A DNA stretch of 64,000 nucleotides from an uncultured Candidatus Poseidoniales archaeon (GTDB lineage Archaea > Thermoplasmatota > Poseidoniia > Poseidoniales > Thalassarchaeaceae), in contig CACKMK010000004.1 in assembly GCA_902601345.1 (NCBI GenBank), forward strand, positions 1-64,000. Reading direction: 5' to 3'. The notes under the pieces were generated by a model. It did no database searches. It was not told the DNA's origin and worked only from the letters and a program-made list of their open reading frames with translations. Shown here in pieces: positions 30,195-53,706 of this stretch. Position 1 is the first letter of the stretch; each line of letters opens with the position of its first letter. The position numbers and the translations under genes were made by a program.

Positions 30195-33100
30195 CTAGGG
30201 CTGCTTCTTCCTGATGTCCTCGGAGTACAGGTATGACTTTCCTTTGCCACTTGAACCAGTACTCTTCTTGTTGGAGATGTAGAGGATTGCCATGGTTCCT
30301 ACCAGTATGGCCGGAACTCCGAACATCAATATCGACATCCACAGGGGCCTTTCTACATCGATGCACGAGACCTGCCCGCTCAGCTCCTGCTCCTGTCCAG
30401 ACGGGCACCTGTTCTGCTCAGTTGATGCGGCTTCGGAGACGTAGTTCCCCGGATCAGCGGGCAGGCATCCTACCTTACCTCCCTCTGGCTGGTAGTTCCC
30501 AGGTTGGCAGGGACTCTGGGAAATCGCGGCTGATGAAGGGACGAAGTTTCCGGGATCAGCGGGAATGCAGCTGTCCATGCCCTCATCGGGTTGGTAATTG
30601 CCTGCCCTACATGAGGTCTGGGACATCGCGCCCTCTTCGGGGACGTGATGACCTGCCATAGCAGGAGTGCATGAGTCCTGGCCACCAAACGACTGGAACT
30701 GACCAGTCGGGCAGGGTGTCTGGCTTGATGAACCGGGAGAACCGACGAAGTTTCCGGGATTTGCCGGCAGGCACGATGACTGTCCCGGATCCGGTTGATA
30801 TGTTCCGGGCAGACACTGACTCTGGGATGAGGATCCAGTTTCGTTGACGAAGTATCCTGGAGATGCATCCACACAAATTGACTGGTCACCGGGCTGGTAC
30901 TTTCCAGCTGGGCATGAAACCGTGGTCGATCCGTCTGGACTGGCTATCTGGCCCGGGGGAGGGGATTCGCATCCTGATGACCCTGATTCTGACTGGAACT
31001 GTCCAGGCGGGCATGGAGTAGGTCCCGTAGCTCCGTCCAGATCGACGAAGAATCCGGGCTCTGAGGGGGTGCAGGACCCCTGACCTGGCTCAGATGAGTA
31101 GGTTCCGTTCTGGCATAGGTTCTGTGATGTAGATCCTAGTTCGGAGTAGAATCCCGGTTCTGCTTCTATGCACGATGTCTGTCCTGAGTCGGGTTGGTAA
31201 GTTCCAGCGGCGCATAGGGTCTGCTCTGCCGATCCCTCCGAGTCTGTGTAGTGCCCGGGAGTGGTTGGCAAGCAGGAGGTCTGAGCGGAAGAATCCTGGA
31301 ACTCTCCAGGCTGGCAGGGGGATTGCGAAGATTGCTGCACCCCATCTACGAAATATCCTGGTGAGGCATCGGTGCAGACTGCCTGGCCCTGCTGGGACGA
31401 GAATGTTCCCGGTTGGCACTGCTGCTGGGAGTCTGATCCCTCTGAAGGGACGTGGAATCCTGGTCCGGCTTGGAAGCATGAGGTTGCGCCTGAAATGATC
31501 TGGTACGTACCTGCTGCACAGGGGGTCTGCTCTTCCGACGCGAAGCCAGTAACGTAGTATCCGGGACTTGCATCCAAGCAATCTGTTGCACCTGAAGATG
31601 GTTGATAAGTTCCTGAAGAGCACTGATTCTGGCGTATCGATCCTTCGTCTGAGACGTAGTTACCTGGCTCGGATTGGATGCAGGATGACTCGCCTGAACC
31701 GGGCTGGTAGCTGCCTACCCCACATGGGGTCTGAGACGCAGATGCAGCATCCGCTACGTAGTGACCAGGGCTCGCATCTATGCAGTCCAGCTGACCGTAG
31801 CTCGGTTGGTATGTTCCTAATTGACAGGGGAACTGCTCGTATGGCGGGAGGTCGTTTGTGTAGTGTCCTGGTTCGGTCAGTTCGCATGTGCCATCCGTGG
31901 CGTAATGTCCCGACGGGCATCCGTCAGGGAACGGGTCCAGGATGTTCACGATGCCGTCGTCGTCATTGTCCCTCTCGCTCATCAGGGCGTGCCTACCAGT
32001 TCCCAGATCGACGTAGGCTGGGACGTCGCTATCCACGTCCTCCCCGAGTCCAAGGGCTCCTTCTTCGTGGTATCCCCAGCAATAGACTGAGCCGTTTGTC
32101 GCCACTGCACAGGTGTGAATCCAACCTGACGAAATCTCTGCTACTCCCAGACCTGTGGGCATAGATACGCTCACAGGGGTTGAGCTGTTGTTTGTGGTTC
32201 CGTCTCCTAGCTGACCCTGCTCATTGAGCCCCCAGCAAACAGCGCTACTGTCATCGAGTATGGCACATGTGTGATCAGTGCCTGCATCTATGGAAATAGC
32301 TGTCCTTCCTGTAGGAAGGGAAACGCTCCTTGGGAACCTTGAGCTGGTGTTAGAACCGTCACCCAACCTCCCCTCGGATTCTCCATATGAGAATGTGTTG
32401 TTACCCCAGCAGTGAACCGATCCGTCGTCTAGGATTCCGCAGGCGTGTCCCGCGCCTAGATCCATTGCAACTAATGAGCGGTTTGCAGGAAGGATGGAAA
32501 TTGGGGTCGGCTCATTTCTGTCATTGTAAGTCCCATCGCCGATGTGCCCGTAATCGTTGTTCCCCCAACACATGCCTGAGCCATTGTCCAGGATGACGCA
32601 AGTAGAGAACAACCCTGCAACAACGGAGATCGGATGTCTACCCTGTGGAAGGTCGATTTCGGTTGGAGCGTTCCTGTCGGATGTATCGCCTGTCCCGAGT
32701 TGCCCATCGGAATTCTCGCCCCAGCACCAAAGCGCCATGTCGGGTTCGGTAATCGCGCAGGTGTGGACCATCCCTGTGGCTAAGGTGACGAAAGTCCTGC
32801 TTCCGGGCATCACAGAGGGACCATGAGGCTGATCACAGATATTGAAGCAACTAATGTGACCATGTCCTATTTGTCCAGAGTAGTCCTCCCCCCAGGCATA
32901 GATATCTCCGCTTGATGTAAGTGCTACTGAGTGGCGTCCGTCTGGGCTAGTCTCAATCACGTCCGAGAGGCAGCAGGTTGAGTCGTCTACTTCGTTTACT
33001 GATACTGGGGTGTATTGGTTTGGGACAGCGAACCTGTCTTCCGAAATACCCAGGAACGAGCCATAGTTGCTACCCCAGCACTTCATCTCATTGTTATCCA

Positions 33101-33326
33101 AAACAACGCAGGTGTAGTCGTAGGATGCTCCCAGTGCAGTTAGAGAGTAAATAGATCCTACCGTGGAACCAGGCATATTGAGTCCAGAATGGGTTTCCAT
33201 TGAGGTTGGTTCTTCGTCAAGGATTTCCCCATTATGTTGGTGCAGTCCCACGGACAATGACATACCCAGAAATAGAATGGTAATTGTTAGTGCTAGAGTC
33301 CTGTTACGTTCGATACGTCCGCTCAT
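30195..33326 (-). CDS. Secreted/membrane-anchored RCC1-repeat plus GCC2/GCC3-like Cys-repeat protein
   Basis: Several RCC1 units (e.g. HTCAITEPDMALWCWGENSDGQLGTGDTSDRNAPTEI), then 15 units of ~34 aa (xPGxYV...C..GTYQP..G...C..A), C-terminal TM. Confidence 0.88.
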   Translation of the reverse strand: MSGRIERNRTLALTITILFLGMSLSVGLHQHNGEILDEEPTSMETHSGLNMPGSTVGSIYSLTALGASYDYTCVVLDNNEMKCWGSNYGSFLGISEDRFAVPNQYTPVSVNEVDDSTCCLSDVIETSPDGRHSVALTSSGDIYAWGEDYSGQIGHGHISCFNICDQPHGPSVMPGSRTFVTLATGMVHTCAITEPDMALWCWGENSDGQLGTGDTSDRNAPTEIDLPQGRHPISVVAGLFSTCVILDNGSGMCWGNNDYGHIGDGTYNDRNEPTPISILPANRSLVAMDLGAGHACGILDDGSVHCWGNNTFSYGESEGRLGDGSNTSSRFPRSVSLPTGRTAISIDAGTDHTCAILDDSSAVCWGLNEQGQLGDGTTNNSSTPVSVSMPTGLGVAEISSGWIHTCAVATNGSVYCWGYHEEGALGLGEDVDSDVPAYVDLGTGRHALMSERDNDDDGIVNILDPFPDGCPSGHYATDGTCELTEPGHYTNDLPPYEQFPCQLGTYQPSYGQLDCIDASPGHYVADAASASQTPCGVGSYQPGSGESSCIQSEPGNYVSDEGSIRQNQCSSGTYQPSSGATDCLDASPGYYVTGFASEEQTPCAAGTYQIISGATSCFQAGPGFHVPSEGSDSQQQCQPGTFSSQQGQAVCTDASPGYFVDGVQQSSQSPCQPGEFQDSSAQTSCLPTTPGHYTDSEGSAEQTLCAAGTYQPDSGQTSCIEAEPGFYSELGSTSQNLCQNGTYSSEPGQGSCTPSEPGFFVDLDGATGPTPCPPGQFQSESGSSGCESPPPGQIASPDGSTTVSCPAGKYQPGDQSICVDASPGYFVNETGSSSQSQCLPGTYQPDPGQSSCLPANPGNFVGSPGSSSQTPCPTGQFQSFGGQDSCTPAMAGHHVPEEGAMSQTSCRAGNYQPDEGMDSCIPADPGNFVPSSAAISQSPCQPGNYQPEGGKVGCLPADPGNYVSEAASTEQNRCPSGQEQELSGQVSCIDVERPLWMSILMFGVPAILVGTMAILYISNKKSTGSSGKGKSYLYSEDIRKKQP
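30355..31882 (-). repeat. 15 tandem ~102-bp coding repeats (GCC2/GCC3-like)
   Basis: Manual alignment of 15 successive units of 32-34 aa, two Cys each. Confidence 0.85.
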
Positions 33327-45154: not shown

Positions 45155-45877
45155 CTAGTGGTTCTCGGTGGATCCCAGGAAGTACTCCCCTATCTCTGGA
45201 TCGGTCAGGATGTGCTGGGCATCTCCCGTGTGAACTACCTTGCCGTTGGAGATGATGTATCCTCTATCGGACCTGGCAAGGGAAAGTCTGGCGTTCTGTT
45301 CGACTATCAGAATCGTGATTCCTCTGTCCCTAAGCGAGTCGATGCTCTCGATTATCTGCTGCTGGTAGAGTGGGGACAGTGCAGCTGTGGGCTCGTCCAG
45401 CAGTAGGAACTTGGGGTCCGAAATTAGTGCCCTGGATATGGCTAACATCTGTCTCTCCCCGCCTGAGAGTGAGGCGGCTAGATCGTACTCCCTGTTCCTA
45501 AGGTCAGGGAACATCTCTAGGGACCGCTCTATCCTCTCTGCTAGAACTCCCTGCGATAGTGAGTTCCCGCCCATCTGGAGGTTCTCTAAAACCGATAGAG
45601 ATGGGAAGACGTTGTCCACCTGTGGAACATAGGCGATACCGTGGTTAACTAGCTGATCGGTCCTCCATCCAGAGACCTCCTGGCCCCTGTATTGAATGCC
45701 TCCTCGATAGTATGTAGCGATTCCAAAGATGGTCTTGATGAAGGTTGACTTCCCACATCCATTCGGTCCGATCACTGTTACGAATTCACCTTCGTCTACG
45801 TACATGTCTATCCCGTAGAGTATCTGTACTGTGCCATAGCCACCTTCAAGACCGCTAACCTCCAAGACACGCGTCAC
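45155..45877 (-). CDS. livF: Branched-chain amino acid-type ABC transporter ATPase LivF
   Basis: VIGPNGCGKSTFIKTIFG, LSGGERQMLAISRAL, LLLDEPTAALSP. Confidence 0.9.
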   Translation of the reverse strand: MTRVLEVSGLEGGYGTVQILYGIDMYVDEGEFVTVIGPNGCGKSTFIKTIFGIATYYRGGIQYRGQEVSGWRTDQLVNHGIAYVPQVDNVFPSLSVLENLQMGGNSLSQGVLAERIERSLEMFPDLRNREYDLAASLSGGERQMLAISRALISDPKFLLLDEPTAALSPLYQQQIIESIDSLRDRGITILIVEQNARLSLARSDRGYIISNGKVVHTGDAQHILTDPEIGEYFLGSTENH

Positions 45878-46668
45878 TCTTCTTCGCCCTCCGATTCTCC
45901 AGCAGCACCAAGATACGCCTCGATTACTGCTCTGTTGTTGCGAACTTCGTCGGGCGTTCCTTGCATCAGAACCCTTCCCTCGTTCATCACTATGATCCTA
46001 TCCACACCCTGTCTGAGGATGAAGTCCATGTTATGCTCGATAATCAGTATGGTGATGCCGGTCTCGTCCACTATCTTTCTGAGGTTGTTGAATATCTTCA
46101 TAGCCAGTGGTCCGGCAACTCCTGCTACTGGTTCGTCGAGAAGAAGAAGCCTTGGTTCGCCCATCATTGATCTGCCAATATCCACCAATTTGCTCTGTCC
46201 TCCAGAGAGCTCGCTAGTCAGATTGTGTGCCATGTGCGGAACCTCTAGCTGGTCTAGGACCTCGAATGCCCTAGACAGGCGTCCTTGTTCGGCTTGGTTT
46301 TTCGGGAGGAGGAGTGACCTAGCCAATTCTCTGATTGAGGAGCCGAACTGCCCCCTAGGAGGAACTAGGAGGTTCTCTATCACTGTCATCTCTCTCCAGA
46401 GATTGGTGTGCTGGAAGGTCCGCGTCATCCCTAGGTTCTGGATCTGGTCTGGTCTTAATCCGGAGGCGTCCTCCCCGAATATCTCGACGCTACCCGATGT
46501 CTTCTCCAGGAGACCACTGATGCAGTTGAAGGTCGTGGACTTTCCACATCCGTTTGGTCCGATAAGCCCTACGAACTCCCCCTTTCCGACAGTGAAAGAG
46601 ACGTCCCTGACGGCGACTAGTCCACCGAACTCCTTCCTGAGTCCAGAGACTTCGAGGACATTACTCAC
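45874..46668 (-). CDS. livG: Branched-chain amino acid-type ABC transporter ATPase LivG
   Basis: LIGPNGCGKSTTFNCISGLL, LSGGQSKLVDIGRSMM, LLLDEPVAGVAG. Confidence 0.9.
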   Translation of the reverse strand: MSNVLEVSGLRKEFGGLVAVRDVSFTVGKGEFVGLIGPNGCGKSTTFNCISGLLEKTSGSVEIFGEDASGLRPDQIQNLGMTRTFQHTNLWREMTVIENLLVPPRGQFGSSIRELARSLLLPKNQAEQGRLSRAFEVLDQLEVPHMAHNLTSELSGGQSKLVDIGRSMMGEPRLLLLDEPVAGVAGPLAMKIFNNLRKIVDETGITILIIEHNMDFILRQGVDRIIVMNEGRVLMQGTPDEVRNNRAVIEAYLGAAGESEGEEE

Positions 46669-49600
46669 CGCCAGTCACCTCCTCCGGTCTGGATGGTCTC
46701 ACGGGCACCTCTGGTAGCAGACCCTTTGGATTGTACTTCAGTGAGAACAGCATGAGGCAACCGATTAGGAGTATCTTGACGTATAGCATGTCAGCGGTGA
46801 CGACACCCCCGTAGTATGACTCGTCGATTGACCTCTGGCCGAGTGCAACAGCGGCGAATGCGAAGATAGCAGCGCCCGAGGCCCCGATATCAATGAGCTT
46901 TTCCGATCTGGTCGCCATACCGACAAGTGCGATTATAGCGAATATCCGGAAAACCTCCCACTGACTCGTCACGAGCCAAGCAAAAAGACTGTCGATCCTG
47001 TCTGCTGTAGTATGTAGCGGCAGGTCAGGTGAACCCTGGCCCACTGCCAGCACGTTGAAGACGAACTCCATCAGAACGATGATGAACGCACCCACGACCA
47101 TGCCTCTGTTATTCGATCTCCCCCCTATTACGAAGGCGGCCCAAACTAGGAAAGTGGAGCGTGCAGGCGCCATGAAACCAGGTTCGAAAGCAGTCAGCTT
47201 CCAAGCCCAGAATGCACCGGCTAGGCCTGCAATAGCAGCCCCCAAGGCCAGGCTCGACGCTTTGTGTTTCAGAACGTCATGACCATGGTGCTGGGCTACC
47301 TCTTCATCCTCCCTGATTGCCTTCAAAACGCGTCCCCAGGGGGAGGAAATGAGCACAGAGAGTAGTCTCCAGACTACCACTACAGCGACAACCGACAGAA
47401 GCATCAGAACGAAGAAGTAGGGGGCTGGTTGTCCCAGACCGAGAAGTTCCCCGACGAAGACTGCTGGGGTGTCCGTTAGTTCTACATCCGAAAGACAATC
47501 GTTTGGTCCAGCCCATGGCGTATCTGGACCAGGAGTCCTGGAGCCGCAAAACCACCAGTTCTCTAATGGTAGGGGGTAAGAGGCAATCCCTATTGCGGAC
47601 CCTACCGATCCTACTCGTAGCAGGGGCTCTCCCTGCAGGAGGACTTTGACGATCTCACCCAGTGAGATGGTCACTATTGCGAAGTAATCCGTCCTGAGTC
47701 GAGCTGTGGGATATGCCAGCGCCCACCCAAGAGCGCCGGCTAGTGCTACTCCGAAAATTGTAGCTGGGAGAATGCCCCATTCATACCCATGGAGCCTCTC
47801 CGGAGCAGTCAGAACCCCTACAGAGATAGCGCCTACTGAGACGAAGAAGATGACCCCGAAATTGACCATTCCCGTGTAGCCAGTATGCAGATTTAATGAT
47901 AAGGACATCAATAGGAAAACGGATAGTGTCAGAAGGACGTTTGAGACCTGTAGGGTCTTCTTGAATCGGAAGTCGTCAGACTCGGCGATTGGTAACCAAG
48001 CCAGGAACATGATCAGTATCAACATCAGAATTAGGAAGAGTGCCCATGATCCGAATGGGCTCTCTCTACCGTAAAGCTCGGCTTTCCTCCTCTCAACCGA
48101 GAACTTCGGCCCGAATACATTGTCTGAGGCATCGGTGACAGATGAGTAGGCCCTTCCGCTAATTTCTGAAGTCCTAGTATAGATGCTCGCAAGGAGGGGT
48201 CGGACCCGTGATGCTGCCGCTTCCAAGGCATTCTTGTGCTTATTATTCAACTCTGACATTTTTCTTCTCACTTGCAGAGTGGCCATTGATAGAGAAGAGT
48301 CGCCCTGTAACTTGAAAGAGGGCCACTCGATTGGCTCTTCCTTACCCGATAGCATCCTGAAACCCTCATATGCAGAGTAAATCCAGATGGCTACGATTGC
48401 TGTGGGCCAAATAACGTCCCCAAAGTCGACGATGAAATTAACGAAGTCGATCTCGAACCTGAACAAATCGAACCATGAGGAGTCAATTTCGGAAACTTCG
48501 GTATCAAAGTGGGGGGAGTCCTCCAAAAGCAGAGTACCGTCGTTCCTACCCGTGACTAAGGCGAGGTTTGTTTCCGCTGAGGCGTTGGCAAGACAGTCTT
48601 CAGAGCACGAGCCATCGGCTAACGAGTTCTTTCCCACGAAATCGCTGAATCTATGGAATACATAAGCAGAAAAGGTAGCGATGGAGAAGTTCTGCATTCT
48701 GTTTGGCCGATTCCTCCACCAATGGTGAAGTCCGAGAATGCCAGTAGGGAGTATGGCCAATGCGGCTGCTATCTTTATGTCCCGAACGGAGTCTTCTTTC
48801 TGCCTCTTCCTCAGCCTCTCTATCTTCCACTTCTCGTAAGCATCGCCTATCCCCTTGGGCATTATCATTAGGATCGCAATTAGGAAAATATACGGCATCA
48901 TAGAGTCGAGATTTGTTAATCCCGACCTACCAAGAGGGTATCCTATTCCGATTGTTACTGGGCCGGAGAGTGCCCTGACAAATCCAACGACTATCGAGCC
49001 AACCAATGCTCCTGGAACGGATCCTATGGTGCCCAACACTATGATCGCGAATGATGGAAGGAGAAGTGTGAATGCCGTTTCCGGACTGAATCTCAGGGTC
49101 AGTGCGAATACGGCCCCCCCTATTCCCGAAAGACCTGCTGAAAGGAAGGCACTGACCATGTGGACTCTCTCCACGTTGATTCCACTGCTTGCTGCCAGCT
49201 CCTCGTTATCGGCCACTGCCCTCATCCTCCTGCCCAGCCTGGTCTTGTTCAGAAGAAGGATCAATAGAAGCACGGCACTGAAAATTACGAATGGCACCAC
49301 TCCCTTGTAGTAGACGTAGTTGGTAGTTGCCTGGGCGCAGTTGAACGTGATGTCGTATACCTCCCAAGCGGGCTTGGACGTCTCAGTTACAATTCTAGAG
49401 AGGATGGGTTCTCCTGTTGATGCATCTAATCCTGTCTGCTCGCACTCCCATGTAGTGTACGTTCTGCCCTCAGCCACTGATCTATCTCCTAGGTTGAATC
49501 GCATCTTCGTGGTCGGAATCTCCCATGATAGGTCAGGTCTCCTCCAATCTCCCTCGGGCTCGAAAATCTGCCTCCCAGCTCCGAACCTGAGGTAGGTGAT

Positions 49601-50425
49601 GGCTCGGAGGATAAGTGCTACACCCAGAGATGCGATCATCATGACCTGAGGGCTTGCCCCCTTCTTTCGGAAATCCCGGTAAACCAGTCTGTCTATGATG
49701 ATGCCAGCAAACCCGGTTAGTACGAAAGCTGCAATCAGAATGAAAATGAAGACGGACCAAGTAAGAACTCCTTCCTGGGATGTAGAAAGACTGGACATAG
49801 GGAACAAAAAGTCAGTCCAAGTCATGATCACCGCAAGGTACATGCCCAGCATGAAAAGTTCTGATTGTGCGAAGTTTCCATACTTCTGCACTTTGTAAGT
49901 GAGTGTGAGTCCTATTGCTATAGCCAGATATGTGGATGACCATGTCAGAGTTCCTGTGCCTATGGATACGAAATCTAGAGTGAAGGAGGCACTTACGGCA
50001 AGGCCCTGCATCAGAAAATCGAGCGTGAGGAATACAAGTGCCACCATGAACAGAGGAGACGATATCAGTGCGGTTGTTCTGGGAATTCCACGAGGAGCGT
50101 CATCGAATAGAACCTTCACGACTACGAATCCCGCTGTGATTGACTGTACTACTTGTAGGATCCAGACCAAGTCATTGGGAAGACCACCCCCTACAATCTT
50201 GTCTAGAATATTCAGGGATCCGAACCCGTTCAGTAATCCTAGCAAGTTCGCATCAATGAAGAGAACTGTGGCGAAGATTACTCTCCTGGTCCACCTTGGA
50301 AGTTCGGAGAATCTGTCCAAGGATCTAGATCGAAGTGGTTCATCCCGAGTCTGATTATCCTCGCCCGCCTTGACCCCGGTCACGGGATTAATCCGATCCC
50401 GGACCTCCTTCTCTTCCTGACTCAT
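46661..50425 (-). CDS. Fused LivH-LivM-type ABC permease (1254 aa)
   Basis: N-terminal LivH-like half (GLTLTYKVQKYGNFAQSELFMLGMYLA; LGRRMRAVADNEELAASSGINVERV), central linker, C-terminal LivM-like half (NLHTGYTGMVNFGVIFFVSVGA; SPWGRVLKAIREDEEVAQHHGHDVLKHKASSLALGAAIAG). Confidence 0.88.
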   Translation of the reverse strand: MSQEEKEVRDRINPVTGVKAGEDNQTRDEPLRSRSLDRFSELPRWTRRVIFATVLFIDANLLGLLNGFGSLNILDKIVGGGLPNDLVWILQVVQSITAGFVVVKVLFDDAPRGIPRTTALISSPLFMVALVFLTLDFLMQGLAVSASFTLDFVSIGTGTLTWSSTYLAIAIGLTLTYKVQKYGNFAQSELFMLGMYLAVIMTWTDFLFPMSSLSTSQEGVLTWSVFIFILIAAFVLTGFAGIIIDRLVYRDFRKKGASPQVMMIASLGVALILRAITYLRFGAGRQIFEPEGDWRRPDLSWEIPTTKMRFNLGDRSVAEGRTYTTWECEQTGLDASTGEPILSRIVTETSKPAWEVYDITFNCAQATTNYVYYKGVVPFVIFSAVLLLILLLNKTRLGRRMRAVADNEELAASSGINVERVHMVSAFLSAGLSGIGGAVFALTLRFSPETAFTLLLPSFAIIVLGTIGSVPGALVGSIVVGFVRALSGPVTIGIGYPLGRSGLTNLDSMMPYIFLIAILMIMPKGIGDAYEKWKIERLRKRQKEDSVRDIKIAAALAILPTGILGLHHWWRNRPNRMQNFSIATFSAYVFHRFSDFVGKNSLADGSCSEDCLANASAETNLALVTGRNDGTLLLEDSPHFDTEVSEIDSSWFDLFRFEIDFVNFIVDFGDVIWPTAIVAIWIYSAYEGFRMLSGKEEPIEWPSFKLQGDSSLSMATLQVRRKMSELNNKHKNALEAAASRVRPLLASIYTRTSEISGRAYSSVTDASDNVFGPKFSVERRKAELYGRESPFGSWALFLILMLILIMFLAWLPIAESDDFRFKKTLQVSNVLLTLSVFLLMSLSLNLHTGYTGMVNFGVIFFVSVGAISVGVLTAPERLHGYEWGILPATIFGVALAGALGWALAYPTARLRTDYFAIVTISLGEIVKVLLQGEPLLRVGSVGSAIGIASYPLPLENWWFCGSRTPGPDTPWAGPNDCLSDVELTDTPAVFVGELLGLGQPAPYFFVLMLLSVVAVVVVWRLLSVLISSPWGRVLKAIREDEEVAQHHGHDVLKHKASSLALGAAIAGLAGAFWAWKLTAFEPGFMAPARSTFLVWAAFVIGGRSNNRGMVVGAFIIVLMEFVFNVLAVGQGSPDLPLHTTADRIDSLFAWLVTSQWEVFRIFAIIALVGMATRSEKLIDIGASGAAIFAFAAVALGQRSIDESYYGGVVTADMLYVKILLIGCLMLFSLKYNPKGLLPEVPVRPSRPEEVTGGE

Positions 50426-50514: not shown

Positions 50515-53500
50515 TTACTCAGTCGTGGCGGCGGTTATGCCGTTGACTGGGTCCCAGCTTCTAGCGCAGTCGTAGGAGACCGTGCCATCGGTGGCAGTGG
50601 AGAACTCTCCGATGCAGAACCCTGCAGCGGGTACGTCGCCGTTTGCCAGGAAGCTGAGTGTGCCGCTGGCACCGTTCCATCCCTGTCCTGTTCCCATGAC
50701 AGCGTCTTGGGCTGCCAATCCTGGGGTCGCCAGAGCTGTAAAGGCCGCGAACGCAGCGATGGTCACTGCGTCGAATGCCTCGGCGGTGTATATCCCGCCA
50801 GCGCAGTCAGTGGACTGGGCGCAAAGGGCCGAGAAGACCATTGCTACCGCTCCTGGGGTTCCAGCTGCAGCGGGCTTGGTTGCGATTATGCCGTTCACCA
50901 GAGTGGTGTCGGACATTCCTGCAGCCAGACCCTCTTCTGCTATGCCGTCAGCGCCGTAGATGGCGCCTGAGTATCCAAGACCTGCCAGTTCCTCGATGAT
51001 CCCCGCGCCGTCAGTGGCGTAGGACACGAGTAGAACGGATGTGCATCCTGCGTCTACCACGGCCTGGGCCATGGTAGCGAAGTCTGTCGTGGTCTCCTCG
51101 TAGCCAACCTGAGTGCAAACGTGAGAAGCGTTCATGTTATCCACGAAAGCGTCTGCCAGTCCAGCACCGTATGCGTTGGTCATGTGGACCACGGCAACGT
51201 TGTCCTGCCCGTCGGCTGTCATCACATCAGCAACGACCGCGCCCTGGAAGGCATCGCTCGGTACGACCCTGAAGAAATTGGGGTAAAGCGAGTCATCTGT
51301 TAGCGCGGGGCTGGTGCTTGCGTAGGAGATCTGTGGGATCCCTGCTGCAGAGAGAACTGCGTTAGCGGCCATGGAAGCTCCGGAGCAAGCTGCTCCGACT
51401 GCTGCCCAGACTCCAGCGTCGACTAGTGACTGGGCTGCCGTTCCACCCATTGTGGAGTCGCAACCCGAGTCAGCGTATACCAGCTCGAACTGCACGCCGT
51501 TGCTGTACCCGATTGTGTTGGCTAGTCCCAGTGCGATCTGGGAGGCTGACACGAAACCAGGGCCGTAAACGGCGATTGGACCAGTAGCGTCGTTCAGGAA
51601 ACCTATCTTGACAGTGGTTCCTGCGAACTCAACGGCTGAGAGGCCGCCAGCAGCGTCCCACATCCTGTCGCAGTTGAAGTACTCGCCGTATGTAGGCACG
51701 TGGTGGAAGGTGCAGACGTCGTATCCAGAGCCGCCGACATCGCCGTTGGCTAGGAAGGTGTGAGTTCCGCTGTCACCAGCGTAACCGTTGCCGACCATCT
51801 CGATGTGAGTAGCCATGTTGGCTCCGTCCTCCATCATTGCAGCGTGTCCAATCATCATGACAGTGTCGTAAGCCTCTGACTGGTAGATTCCGGTAGAGCA
51901 GACTGCGTCGTCTGCGCAAGCTGCTGCGAAGACACCTGCGCCTGCGGCTGCTGCCCTGGGCTTGGTGACCTGTAACAGGTTGGCTGCTGCTGGTGCCGAG
52001 TAGTCGTTCAGAGCAGCTTCGCCTGCCATTCCGTCAGCGCTGAAGGTCGGGATTGCTGCCCCGAGTCCTGCCATGGTCTCTACGATCATGGCACCGTCTG
52101 CTGAGTAAGAGGCTAGGAACGCGGAGTCGCATCCAGCATCAATTACAGCCTGGACTGCTGCCTGGAAATCTGTGGCGGTCTCCTCGTAGCCTGCTTGCAA
52201 GCAGACGTTCTCTGCTCCTAAGTTGGCCACAACTGCGTCTGCTAAGCCTGCGCCGTAGCTGTTCGTCATGTGGATTACTGCGGTGTTGTTGACGCCCGAT
52301 GCTGCAATCATGTCCGCAGCTGCCTGACCTTGTAGGGCATCGCTTGGAACAATCCTGTAGAAGTGCGGGTGGTCGGTATCACTCGACAGCGCTGGCGAGG
52401 TGCTCGCGTAGGAGATCATTGGGATACCAGCTGCCGAAAGCACTGCGTTTGCACCCATTGAAGCACCGGAGCAAGCTGCTCCAGCCACTGCCACTACACC
52501 CGAGTCCACTAGGGACTGAGCGGCCGTTTGGCCCATGGTACCGTCGCATCCTGAGTCTGCCTCGACTACCTCGAAGACGTAGTCGTCTCCCATAGCGTTC
52601 AGGTCAGACTGGGCCTGAGTCCATGCATAGGTGAAGGGCGCAGCGAACTGAGCTATTGGTCCTGTAGCGTCGTTCAGGAAACCGATCTTGATTGTGGTTG
52701 CCTCTGGCTCTACAACTGGAGCTACGAACACAGGGTTCGCGGTTCCCATGTAGTGAGATGCAATCTCGTCGACCACCGCGTGTGCCACATCTGCATCGAA
52801 GCCAACTACGTTGTTGTCAGCGTCGTAACTCTCGAAGGGCGGGTAAAACGGGTCTGTGCATACCTTCAGCTGCCCTGACTCCAGAACTCCAGTCAAAGTG
52901 GATCCCTCGCTGGGTGAGGTTGGGTAAGCCGTTGCGGTGTCAGCGGTGGTGTCATCTGCGAGAACTGCTGCACCATCGAATGAGGCCTGGAAGATTGTGT
53001 CGTACTCTCCAGAGTTGACTATTGCGCCGATTGCCACGTTGAGGGCGTCCAGGAGTTCCCCTGAGTCCTCGCGTACTGCGAACCCGAAGTTCTCGTCCGA
53101 GAACTGGGTCATCAGTGTACCTTCTAGGGAAAGCACTGGTGCGTCGCCCAGAGCGTACATGACGTCTCCATTGTCCAAAGCGGCTATGACCGATGGGAAG
53201 TCCTCATATGCAACAACGGTCGCATCTGGAAGGCTTGCCATGTTATCGGCATCCCCATTGGCGAAGATGTCCGAAGTCGTACCGGACTGTACGCCCACAG
53301 TTATTCCTGCGGCGTTGAGCTCGGATACATCGCTGACGGACGCAGATCCGGATCCGCCGATTACACCCTGGCTGCTTGTGTAGTAAGCCCTGGTGAAGTC
53401 AACGACTTGGTCGCGTGCCTCAGTCTTGGTCATCGCCGAGATGATTACGTCACACATCTCGCCGGCATTCAGGTTGGGGATGATGGGGTCCCATCCGGAC

Positions 53501-53643
53501 TCCACCCAGACAACCTCGACATCGCTGGCCATCGAAATGGCCCAATCGGCGTCATCGTCGTCATCCCCCCCTGCGCAACCAGCGAGACTAGCCGCTAGCA
53601 TGCTCAGGGTAAGCATCATTGCTATCATTTTCTTGTTGTACAT
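50515..53643 (-). CDS. Three-domain solute-binding lipoprotein: rearranged SBP family 3 domain + two LivK/Peripla_BP_6-like domains
   Basis: Lipobox LAASLAGC; SBP_bac_3-like segments; two IKIGFLNDATGPIA...GAACSGASMxANAVLSAAGIPxISYASTSPAL modules. Confidence 0.85.
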   Translation of the reverse strand: MYNKKMIAMMLTLSMLAASLAGCAGGDDDDDADWAISMASDVEVVWVESGWDPIIPNLNAGEMCDVIISAMTKTEARDQVVDFTRAYYTSSQGVIGGSGSASVSDVSELNAAGITVGVQSGTTSDIFANGDADNMASLPDATVVAYEDFPSVIAALDNGDVMYALGDAPVLSLEGTLMTQFSDENFGFAVREDSGELLDALNVAIGAIVNSGEYDTIFQASFDGAAVLADDTTADTATAYPTSPSEGSTLTGVLESGQLKVCTDPFYPPFESYDADNNVVGFDADVAHAVVDEIASHYMGTANPVFVAPVVEPEATTIKIGFLNDATGPIAQFAAPFTYAWTQAQSDLNAMGDDYVFEVVEADSGCDGTMGQTAAQSLVDSGVVAVAGAACSGASMGANAVLSAAGIPMISYASTSPALSSDTDHPHFYRIVPSDALQGQAAADMIAASGVNNTAVIHMTNSYGAGLADAVVANLGAENVCLQAGYEETATDFQAAVQAVIDAGCDSAFLASYSADGAMIVETMAGLGAAIPTFSADGMAGEAALNDYSAPAAANLLQVTKPRAAAAGAGVFAAACADDAVCSTGIYQSEAYDTVMMIGHAAMMEDGANMATHIEMVGNGYAGDSGTHTFLANGDVGGSGYDVCTFHHVPTYGEYFNCDRMWDAAGGLSAVEFAGTTVKIGFLNDATGPIAVYGPGFVSASQIALGLANTIGYSNGVQFELVYADSGCDSTMGGTAAQSLVDAGVWAAVGAACSGASMAANAVLSAAGIPQISYASTSPALTDDSLYPNFFRVVPSDAFQGAVVADVMTADGQDNVAVVHMTNAYGAGLADAFVDNMNASHVCTQVGYEETTTDFATMAQAVVDAGCTSVLLVSYATDGAGIIEELAGLGYSGAIYGADGIAEEGLAAGMSDTTLVNGIIATKPAAAGTPGAVAMVFSALCAQSTDCAGGIYTAEAFDAVTIAAFAAFTALATPGLAAQDAVMGTGQGWNGASGTLSFLANGDVPAAGFCIGEFSTATDGTVSYDCARSWDPVNGITAATTE

Positions 53644-53706
53644 AGTGTTCACACTATCCGTGCCCCCGCGAAATACATTGTGCATATAGAGATTGTTGAT
53701 TATTAT

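Follow-up and report, generated by a model that had tools for sequence, protein, structure and literature searches.

Solute-binding proteins whose chain order has been circularly permuted are already known from two settings. TpMglB-2 (Tp0684), a membrane-tethered sugar receptor of spirochaetes that belongs to type I (cluster B), is a natural circular permutant with its first three strands moved, and its authors proposed membrane tethering as a reason for the permutation (PMC4990184). A circular-permutation relation among two-lobed binding proteins was likewise found, by structure, for the glycine-betaine receptors OpuAC/ProX and their relatives, between distant families with <24% identity (CPSARST, PMC2395249). 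In the amino-acid receptor family SBP_bac_3 (PF00497), which includes LAO/ArgT, GlnH and the domains SBD1 and SBD2 of GlnPQ, the order has been changed by design: the man-made biosensor cpLAO-BP is cut in a hinge strand and closed by a linker, and still binds lysine with an affinity 36-fold weaker (PMC5087393). The tandem receptors of GlnPQ, on the other hand, place several binding domains in one chain for one importer. We found no published case of a natural SBP_bac_3 permutant in the open-access papers searched.

Here we describe such a case from the window, by which we mean the whole 64,000-nucleotide stretch of DNA analysed, taken from an uncultured Candidatus Poseidoniales archaeon, which belongs to a group abundant in the ocean. 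Very probably, the product of the gene under study is a lipoprotein receptor that serves a LIV-type (HAAT) amino-acid ABC importer in a Thalassarchaeaceae (Marine Group IIb) archaeon, a multi-receptor collector of duplication origin that carries a permuted SBP_bac_3 domain and two LIV-type domains.

Domain order, operon and proposed function

The lipoprotein and its operon comprise the following features.

50515..53685, minus strand: three-domain solute-binding lipoprotein (LivK-like), 1056 aa (ORF translation; full-length homologues in many relatives)
53575..53643, minus strand: signal peptide with lipobox LAGC, residues 15-37 (sequence)
52975..53529, minus strand: SBP_bac_3 piece 1, residues 53-237, with strand beta2, hinge, lobe 2 and the last lobe 1 helices (PF00497 positions 35-128)
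52903..52974, minus strand: linker from old C-terminus to old N-terminus, residues 238-261 (alignment; a homologous linker occurs in hinge-type permuted proteins from another family)
52750..52902, minus strand: SBP_bac_3 piece 2, residues 262-312, beta1-alpha1, the canonical N-terminal part (PF00497 positions 1-36 and AF2 model)
52699..52749, minus strand: linker of low confidence leading into LIV domain 1, residues 313-329 (pLDDT <50 over most of it in both models)
51631..52698, minus strand: LIV-type (Peripla_BP_6) binding domain 1, residues 330-685 (profile and model)
50566..51618, minus strand: LIV-type (Peripla_BP_6) binding domain 2, residues 690-1040 (profile and model)
46661..50425, minus strand: LivH-LivM fused permease with two BPD_transp_2 domains, 1254 aa (profile; synteny in relatives)
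45874..46668, minus strand: LivG-type ATPase, ABC_tran and BCA_ABC_TP_C (profile and synteny)
45155..45877, minus strand: LivF-type ATPase, ABC_tran (profile and synteny)

Past the lipobox, which stands at the same position as [LF]AGC in homologues with a readable N-terminus, the lipoprotein continues as VEVVWVESGWDPIIPNLN..., that is, as SBP_bac_3 from profile position 35; the sequence-only reading had seen this mid-fold entry, and both the translation and the profile positions 35-128 bear it out. It had also placed the canonical N-terminal part behind the end of the domain, with coordinates right to within a few codons: LTGVLESGQLKVCTDPFYPPFESYDADNNVVGFDADVAHAVVDEIAS is found there in the lipoprotein ORF, and TLTGVLESGQLKVCTDPFYPPFESYDADNNVVGFDADVAHAVVDEIAS, also past the domain end, corresponds to profile positions 1-36. 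The family match reaches 89.6 bits against a curated cut-off of 26.4, in two stretches, and the swapped pieces recur in a whole-genome family-profile scan (52984-53529 as positions 35-128, 52762-52869 as 1-36). As the family's canonical order is replaced by beta2 to C-terminus, linker and then beta1-alpha1, the domain is a permuted SBP_bac_3 variant, while the two Peripla_BP_6/ANF_receptor domains match their own profile in canonical order. With a divergent PurM gene starting roughly 100 bases before the lipoprotein start, there is no room for an N-terminal half hidden in front of the ORF.

The swapped order was then read against a profile made from only ten canonical-order proteins of other families of the phylum, with each domain searched single or doubled (S+S) and its ends trimmed at the domain limits. 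Doubling gained 27-39 bits in 32/32 window-type homologues and restored one canonical-profile match, unbroken from about position 6 to 225 in those listed, so the earlier claim that joining the pieces recreates the normal order stands; for the canonical controls L101 and L102 doubling cost about 2.7 bits. With loose ends the window type showed no gain, owing to unrelated flanking residues at the junction. The match of the moved piece alone is not due to chance: its mean over the 32 homologues is 26.6 bits, whereas the window's own piece, shuffled 2000 times, never scored above 6.1. Searched against PDB sequences, the re-ordered domain aligned over its full length with 6h30 (GlnPQ SBD1-SBD2; E 1.1e-37) and AncQR (5.6e-24); in the order as found, the values were 1.7e-30 and 8.2e-21, with nearly all of the score coming from the first piece. 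The order is thus swapped relative to clear homologues, and both parts make up one domain once the ends are joined, as in a natural circular permutant.

The two LIV-type domains and the LivK-LivHM-LivG-LivF operon were absent from the sequence-only reading. The LIV-type domains are encoded together with LivH, LivM, LivG and LivF, as for a LIV receptor (LivK), and the gene order of divergent PurM, SBP, LivHM, LivG and LivF is kept in relatives; it is on these domains and this operon that we assign the protein to a LIV-type importer. The LivH-LivM chain (46661-50425, 1254 aa) has a long insert between its halves, TM2 domain-like by eye and kept in relatives. The window genome also encodes an AapJ-like receptor of canonical form, which has a fused permease of its own, and at 30195-33326 a secreted protein of 1043 aa with, by eye, RCC1-like repeats, then many cysteine-rich ones and a C-terminal hydrophobic segment. 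In coastal water, livK is among the most transcribed Thalassarchaeaceae genes and has been described as a branched-chain amino-acid receptor (PMC9723583); our lipoprotein is apparently the counterpart of the livK annotated there.

The protein has three binding domains in series: first SBP_bac_3, permuted by a cut that separates helix alpha1 from strand beta2, and then two LIV-type domains. The permuted domain is predicted to form one ordinary two-lobed flytrap, in which a linker of about 24 residues now ties the old beta1-alpha1 unit to the old C-terminus, and its new ends would suit anchoring at one side and LIV-domain fusion at the other. The whole lipoprotein would then act as a multi-receptor collector at the membrane that keeps captured amino acids near LivHMGF, the permuted domain broadening the set of amino acids that are caught there. 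Direct delivery of its ligand into LivHM we can only infer, since SBP_bac_3 proteins normally feed BPD_transp_1 permeases and LivHM is of the BPD_transp_2 family. The same mismatch would suit a binding domain that is no transport receptor and that senses or tethers amino acids or peptides, perhaps like the LDL-receptor-like canonical relatives, and that delivers nothing to LivHM, as would the placement of the canonical relatives L101 and L102 in multidomain surface proteins without a LIV domain and the simpler LivK-like proteins without SBP_bac_3 (L105, L112) that lie beside LivHM. We consider such a role rather unlikely: the domain shares its chain with the receptor of a complete importer whose operon is conserved, and its hinge-cut relatives, described below, adjoin GlnPQ-type transporters.

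Chain orders among relatives and the evolutionary route

Non-permuted homologues, which the sequence-only reading suggested looking for in related genomes, do occur in the same archaeal family as the window: L101 (892 aa, cut off by the end of its sequence) and L102 (1202 aa), both of them multidomain surface proteins, lack a LIV domain and carry a canonical-order SBP_bac_3 domain, which is 55-58% identical to the permuted form over the larger piece. An LDL-receptor class A module was detected beside the canonical domain in L102:1535-5143 (plus strand), and cysteine-rich modules like LDL-receptor class A are visible in L101:3-2678 (minus strand), which also has the canonical domain.

A second natural SBP_bac_3 permutation is cut at the hinge. 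Standalone proteins with this cut, some 320-348 aa long, are present in the window's family (L187-L203) and, within the same class, in a second family (L236-L238, L252, L254). Their chain runs from lobe 2 through the C-terminal helices, a linker, the N-terminal piece and the hinge to a hydrophobic C-terminal segment resembling a membrane anchor. Two loci were inspected.

L148:3010-3987, minus strand: hinge-cut receptor
L237:2771-3766, plus strand: hinge-cut receptor

In both, the neighbours are a GlnPQ-type permease with a YCF48-like propeller and a GlnQ-like ATPase. The permeases themselves (L148:4073-6256, plus strand; L237:894-2726, minus strand) are of GlnP/HisM type with the YCF48-like beta-propeller fused at the N-terminus. 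Doubling the hinge-cut sequences gained 48-66 bits for the second family, represented by three proteins, and 4-20 bits for the more diverged ones of the window's family. A plasmid search with a hinge-cut protein returned 34 records, none covering 80% of the query, and those listed match one third of it.

Receptors that lack SBP_bac_3 and lie beside LivHM also exist within the window's family, L112 with a single LIV domain and L105 with two, so an existing receptor has either gained or lost the permuted domain. In a divergent window-type homologue, L046:4701-7709 (frame from 3818), no lipobox was seen; ahead of the permuted domain come an N-terminus that resembles a zinc ribbon, then a hydrophobic segment and a stretch resembling calcium repeats. 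In related archaea, L103 (1422-aa frame) and L104 (1177-aa frame) have tandem LIV-type domains, behind which come thrombospondin-3-like calcium repeats and a hydrophobic C-terminus.

As to how these orders arose, the sequence-only reading proposed tandem duplication and trimming. Tandem duplication with different trimming is the likely route: a head-to-tail duplicated SBP_bac_3 would have lost its outer parts to leave the permuted domain, and relatives of hinge-cut and of canonical order would have come from the same circle, trimmed differently. In one continuous alignment (query 43-228, about 50% identity), the window form matches another family's hinge form across the C-linker-N junction. 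Their linkers also resemble each other (VVLTDDTDANTA..YP), with p = 0.0005 by shuffling for 3/4 sequences tested, a likeness absent in L046, the most diverged window-type sequence. These forms may, in our reading, go back to a single C-linker-N ancestor, whether tandem or permuted, that was cut anew at more than one place. A remnant of the duplication overlap after alpha1 gave no significant signal in the shuffle test (median p 0.57), where the candidate leftover 'HYMGTANPMFVAP' against canonical 'HYGVNLEFVPVES', suggestive by eye, did not reach significance, and no tandem N-C-N-C protein was found among 293 order and 293 phylum genomes.

A tree built on re-ordered sequences keeps apart the window type, the canonical multidomain proteins and every hinge-cut group, and places the canonical multidomain type as sister to the window type. 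When the long-branched hinge group is omitted, the window type no longer forms one side of a branch. A single clade of permuted types is not rejected (p 0.05-0.07), and on this tree the canonical order may have been either retained or regained. A single move of the beta1-alpha1 segment, or a fusion of gene fragments, made independently of the hinge-cut form and not by tandem duplication, would agree with a sister group that is canonical and not hinge-cut, with the negative overlap test and with the lack of a tandem intermediate. We nevertheless judge it unlikely, given that independent moves would not yield a C-linker-N junction and linker common to the window and hinge forms and that one clade of permuted groups is not rejected.

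Taking up again the re-cutting of one ancestor, we offer a broader scenario tentatively, as possible but short of probable. In this class of archaea the amino-acid receptor fold may have moved round its own circle at least twice, from an ancestral C-linker-N form (tandem or permuted) to the hinge-cut form with GlnPQ-type importers, to the alpha1/beta2-cut form fused to LIV domains and back to the canonical form with LDL-receptor-like modules, and the re-cuts may track changes of anchor and partner.

Predicted fold, pocket and independent assemblies

AlphaFold modelling, which the sequence-only reading had named as a check, packs both segments as one SBP fold (AlphaFold2, residues 40-330, 31 sequences; pLDDT 86.3, pTM 0.84), with the moved strand (model 233-238) and helix (257-274) confident and the tail behind them not. 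The full-length model (pLDDT 85.3, pTM 0.64) has three modules and a low-confidence linker after the first. Amino-acid SBPs came up in Foldseek with probability 1.00, and on the best target the first piece superposed to 1.6-1.8 A; since the program aligns sequentially and is not permutation-aware, it does not place the moved piece on a single-domain target, and the match is that of the larger piece. The whole permuted SBP_bac_3 domain is thus predicted to form a type II two-lobed fold.

For the pocket we used the residues of LAO that we take to be D11, Y14, F52, S69, S72, R77, T121 and D161. The equivalents of D11, Y14, F52 (as W), S69, S72 (as T), R77 and D161 are invariant in 31/31 sequences and that of T121 is kept in 30/31; those of D11 and Y14 lie in the moved piece, and the remaining positions in the first. 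This argues for a working alpha-amino-acid pocket made by both pieces, and because the pocket residues of both are invariant, the permuted domain probably still binds an alpha-amino acid. Alternatively, the pieces, a C-terminal half and an N-terminal fragment, could be unrelated SBP_bac_3 remnants that form no joint fold and amount to a dead spacer ahead of the LIV domains. A Foldseek alignment covering the larger piece only would agree with this, but the single-fold model with its high confidence over both pieces (pTM 0.84), the invariant pocket residues in both across 31 sequences and the conservation of the domain across 8 genera make this highly improbable.

Full-length colinear homologues of the lipoprotein are present in many relatives, in assemblies from dozens of species and down to about 52% identity, and with the pieces searched separately the larger one comes first in every LIV-fused homologue in which both were found. 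Their sources are many MAGs and at least three assemblies that we take from their naming to be single-cell genomes (AG-404-A19, AH-287-M04, AG-422-I20). A permuted-domain profile matched 72/244 genomes of the order, all of the window's own family (Thalassarchaeaceae) and from 8 genera, a count that includes a few weak matches to hinge-cut proteins. A collapsed tandem repeat in one metagenome bin could mimic the swapped order, and the window genome is a 64%-complete MAG in 37 contigs, but there is next to no chance of such an artefact: misassembly is ruled out by the same order in independent metagenome and single-cell assemblies, and PurM and LivHM flank the gene identically in relatives. Circular permutation, as first proposed, is therefore upheld by the assemblies, the doubled-sequence test, the single-fold model, the conserved pocket and the canonical-order homologues.

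Comparison with described systems

With SBP_bac_3 members the window protein shares an above-cut-off sequence, the predicted two-lobed fold and the alpha-amino-acid pocket, but it starts at beta2 with beta1-alpha1 last, it is fused to two LIV domains, and LivHM takes the place of a GlnP/HisM-type permease. Like TpMglB-2, it is a natural circular permutation in a membrane-tethered binding protein; unlike that type I receptor with three strands moved, it is type II, for amino acids and archaeal, its permuted domain being SBP_bac_3, and it has relatives in two further orders. Whereas the relation among OpuAC/ProX and their relatives is one between distant families, the canonical and permuted forms here are 55-58% identical within one archaeal family. 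GlnPQ differs in that both its receptor domains are of one family, in canonical order and fused to the permease, while the window protein mixes SBP_bac_3 and LIV families.

Natural circular permutation is usually inferred between distant proteins. In one archaeal class, by contrast, a canonical and two differently cut forms survive, the window type being 50-58% identical to both others, and this closeness opens the route of permutation to step-by-step study. In the apparent livK counterpart there is a third receptor domain, a permuted one, which shows up as two separate hits in profile annotation, and ordinary domain annotation will overlook such domains. Finally, cpLAO-BP belongs to the same SBP_bac_3 family and, although man-made and cut elsewhere than the window protein, has the design of hinge-strand cut and linker that is natural in the hinge-cut archaeal relatives. 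Nature has here cut at the same kind of place that biosensor engineers chose (PMC5087393), and the hinge-cut proteins could thus serve as ready-made scaffolds.
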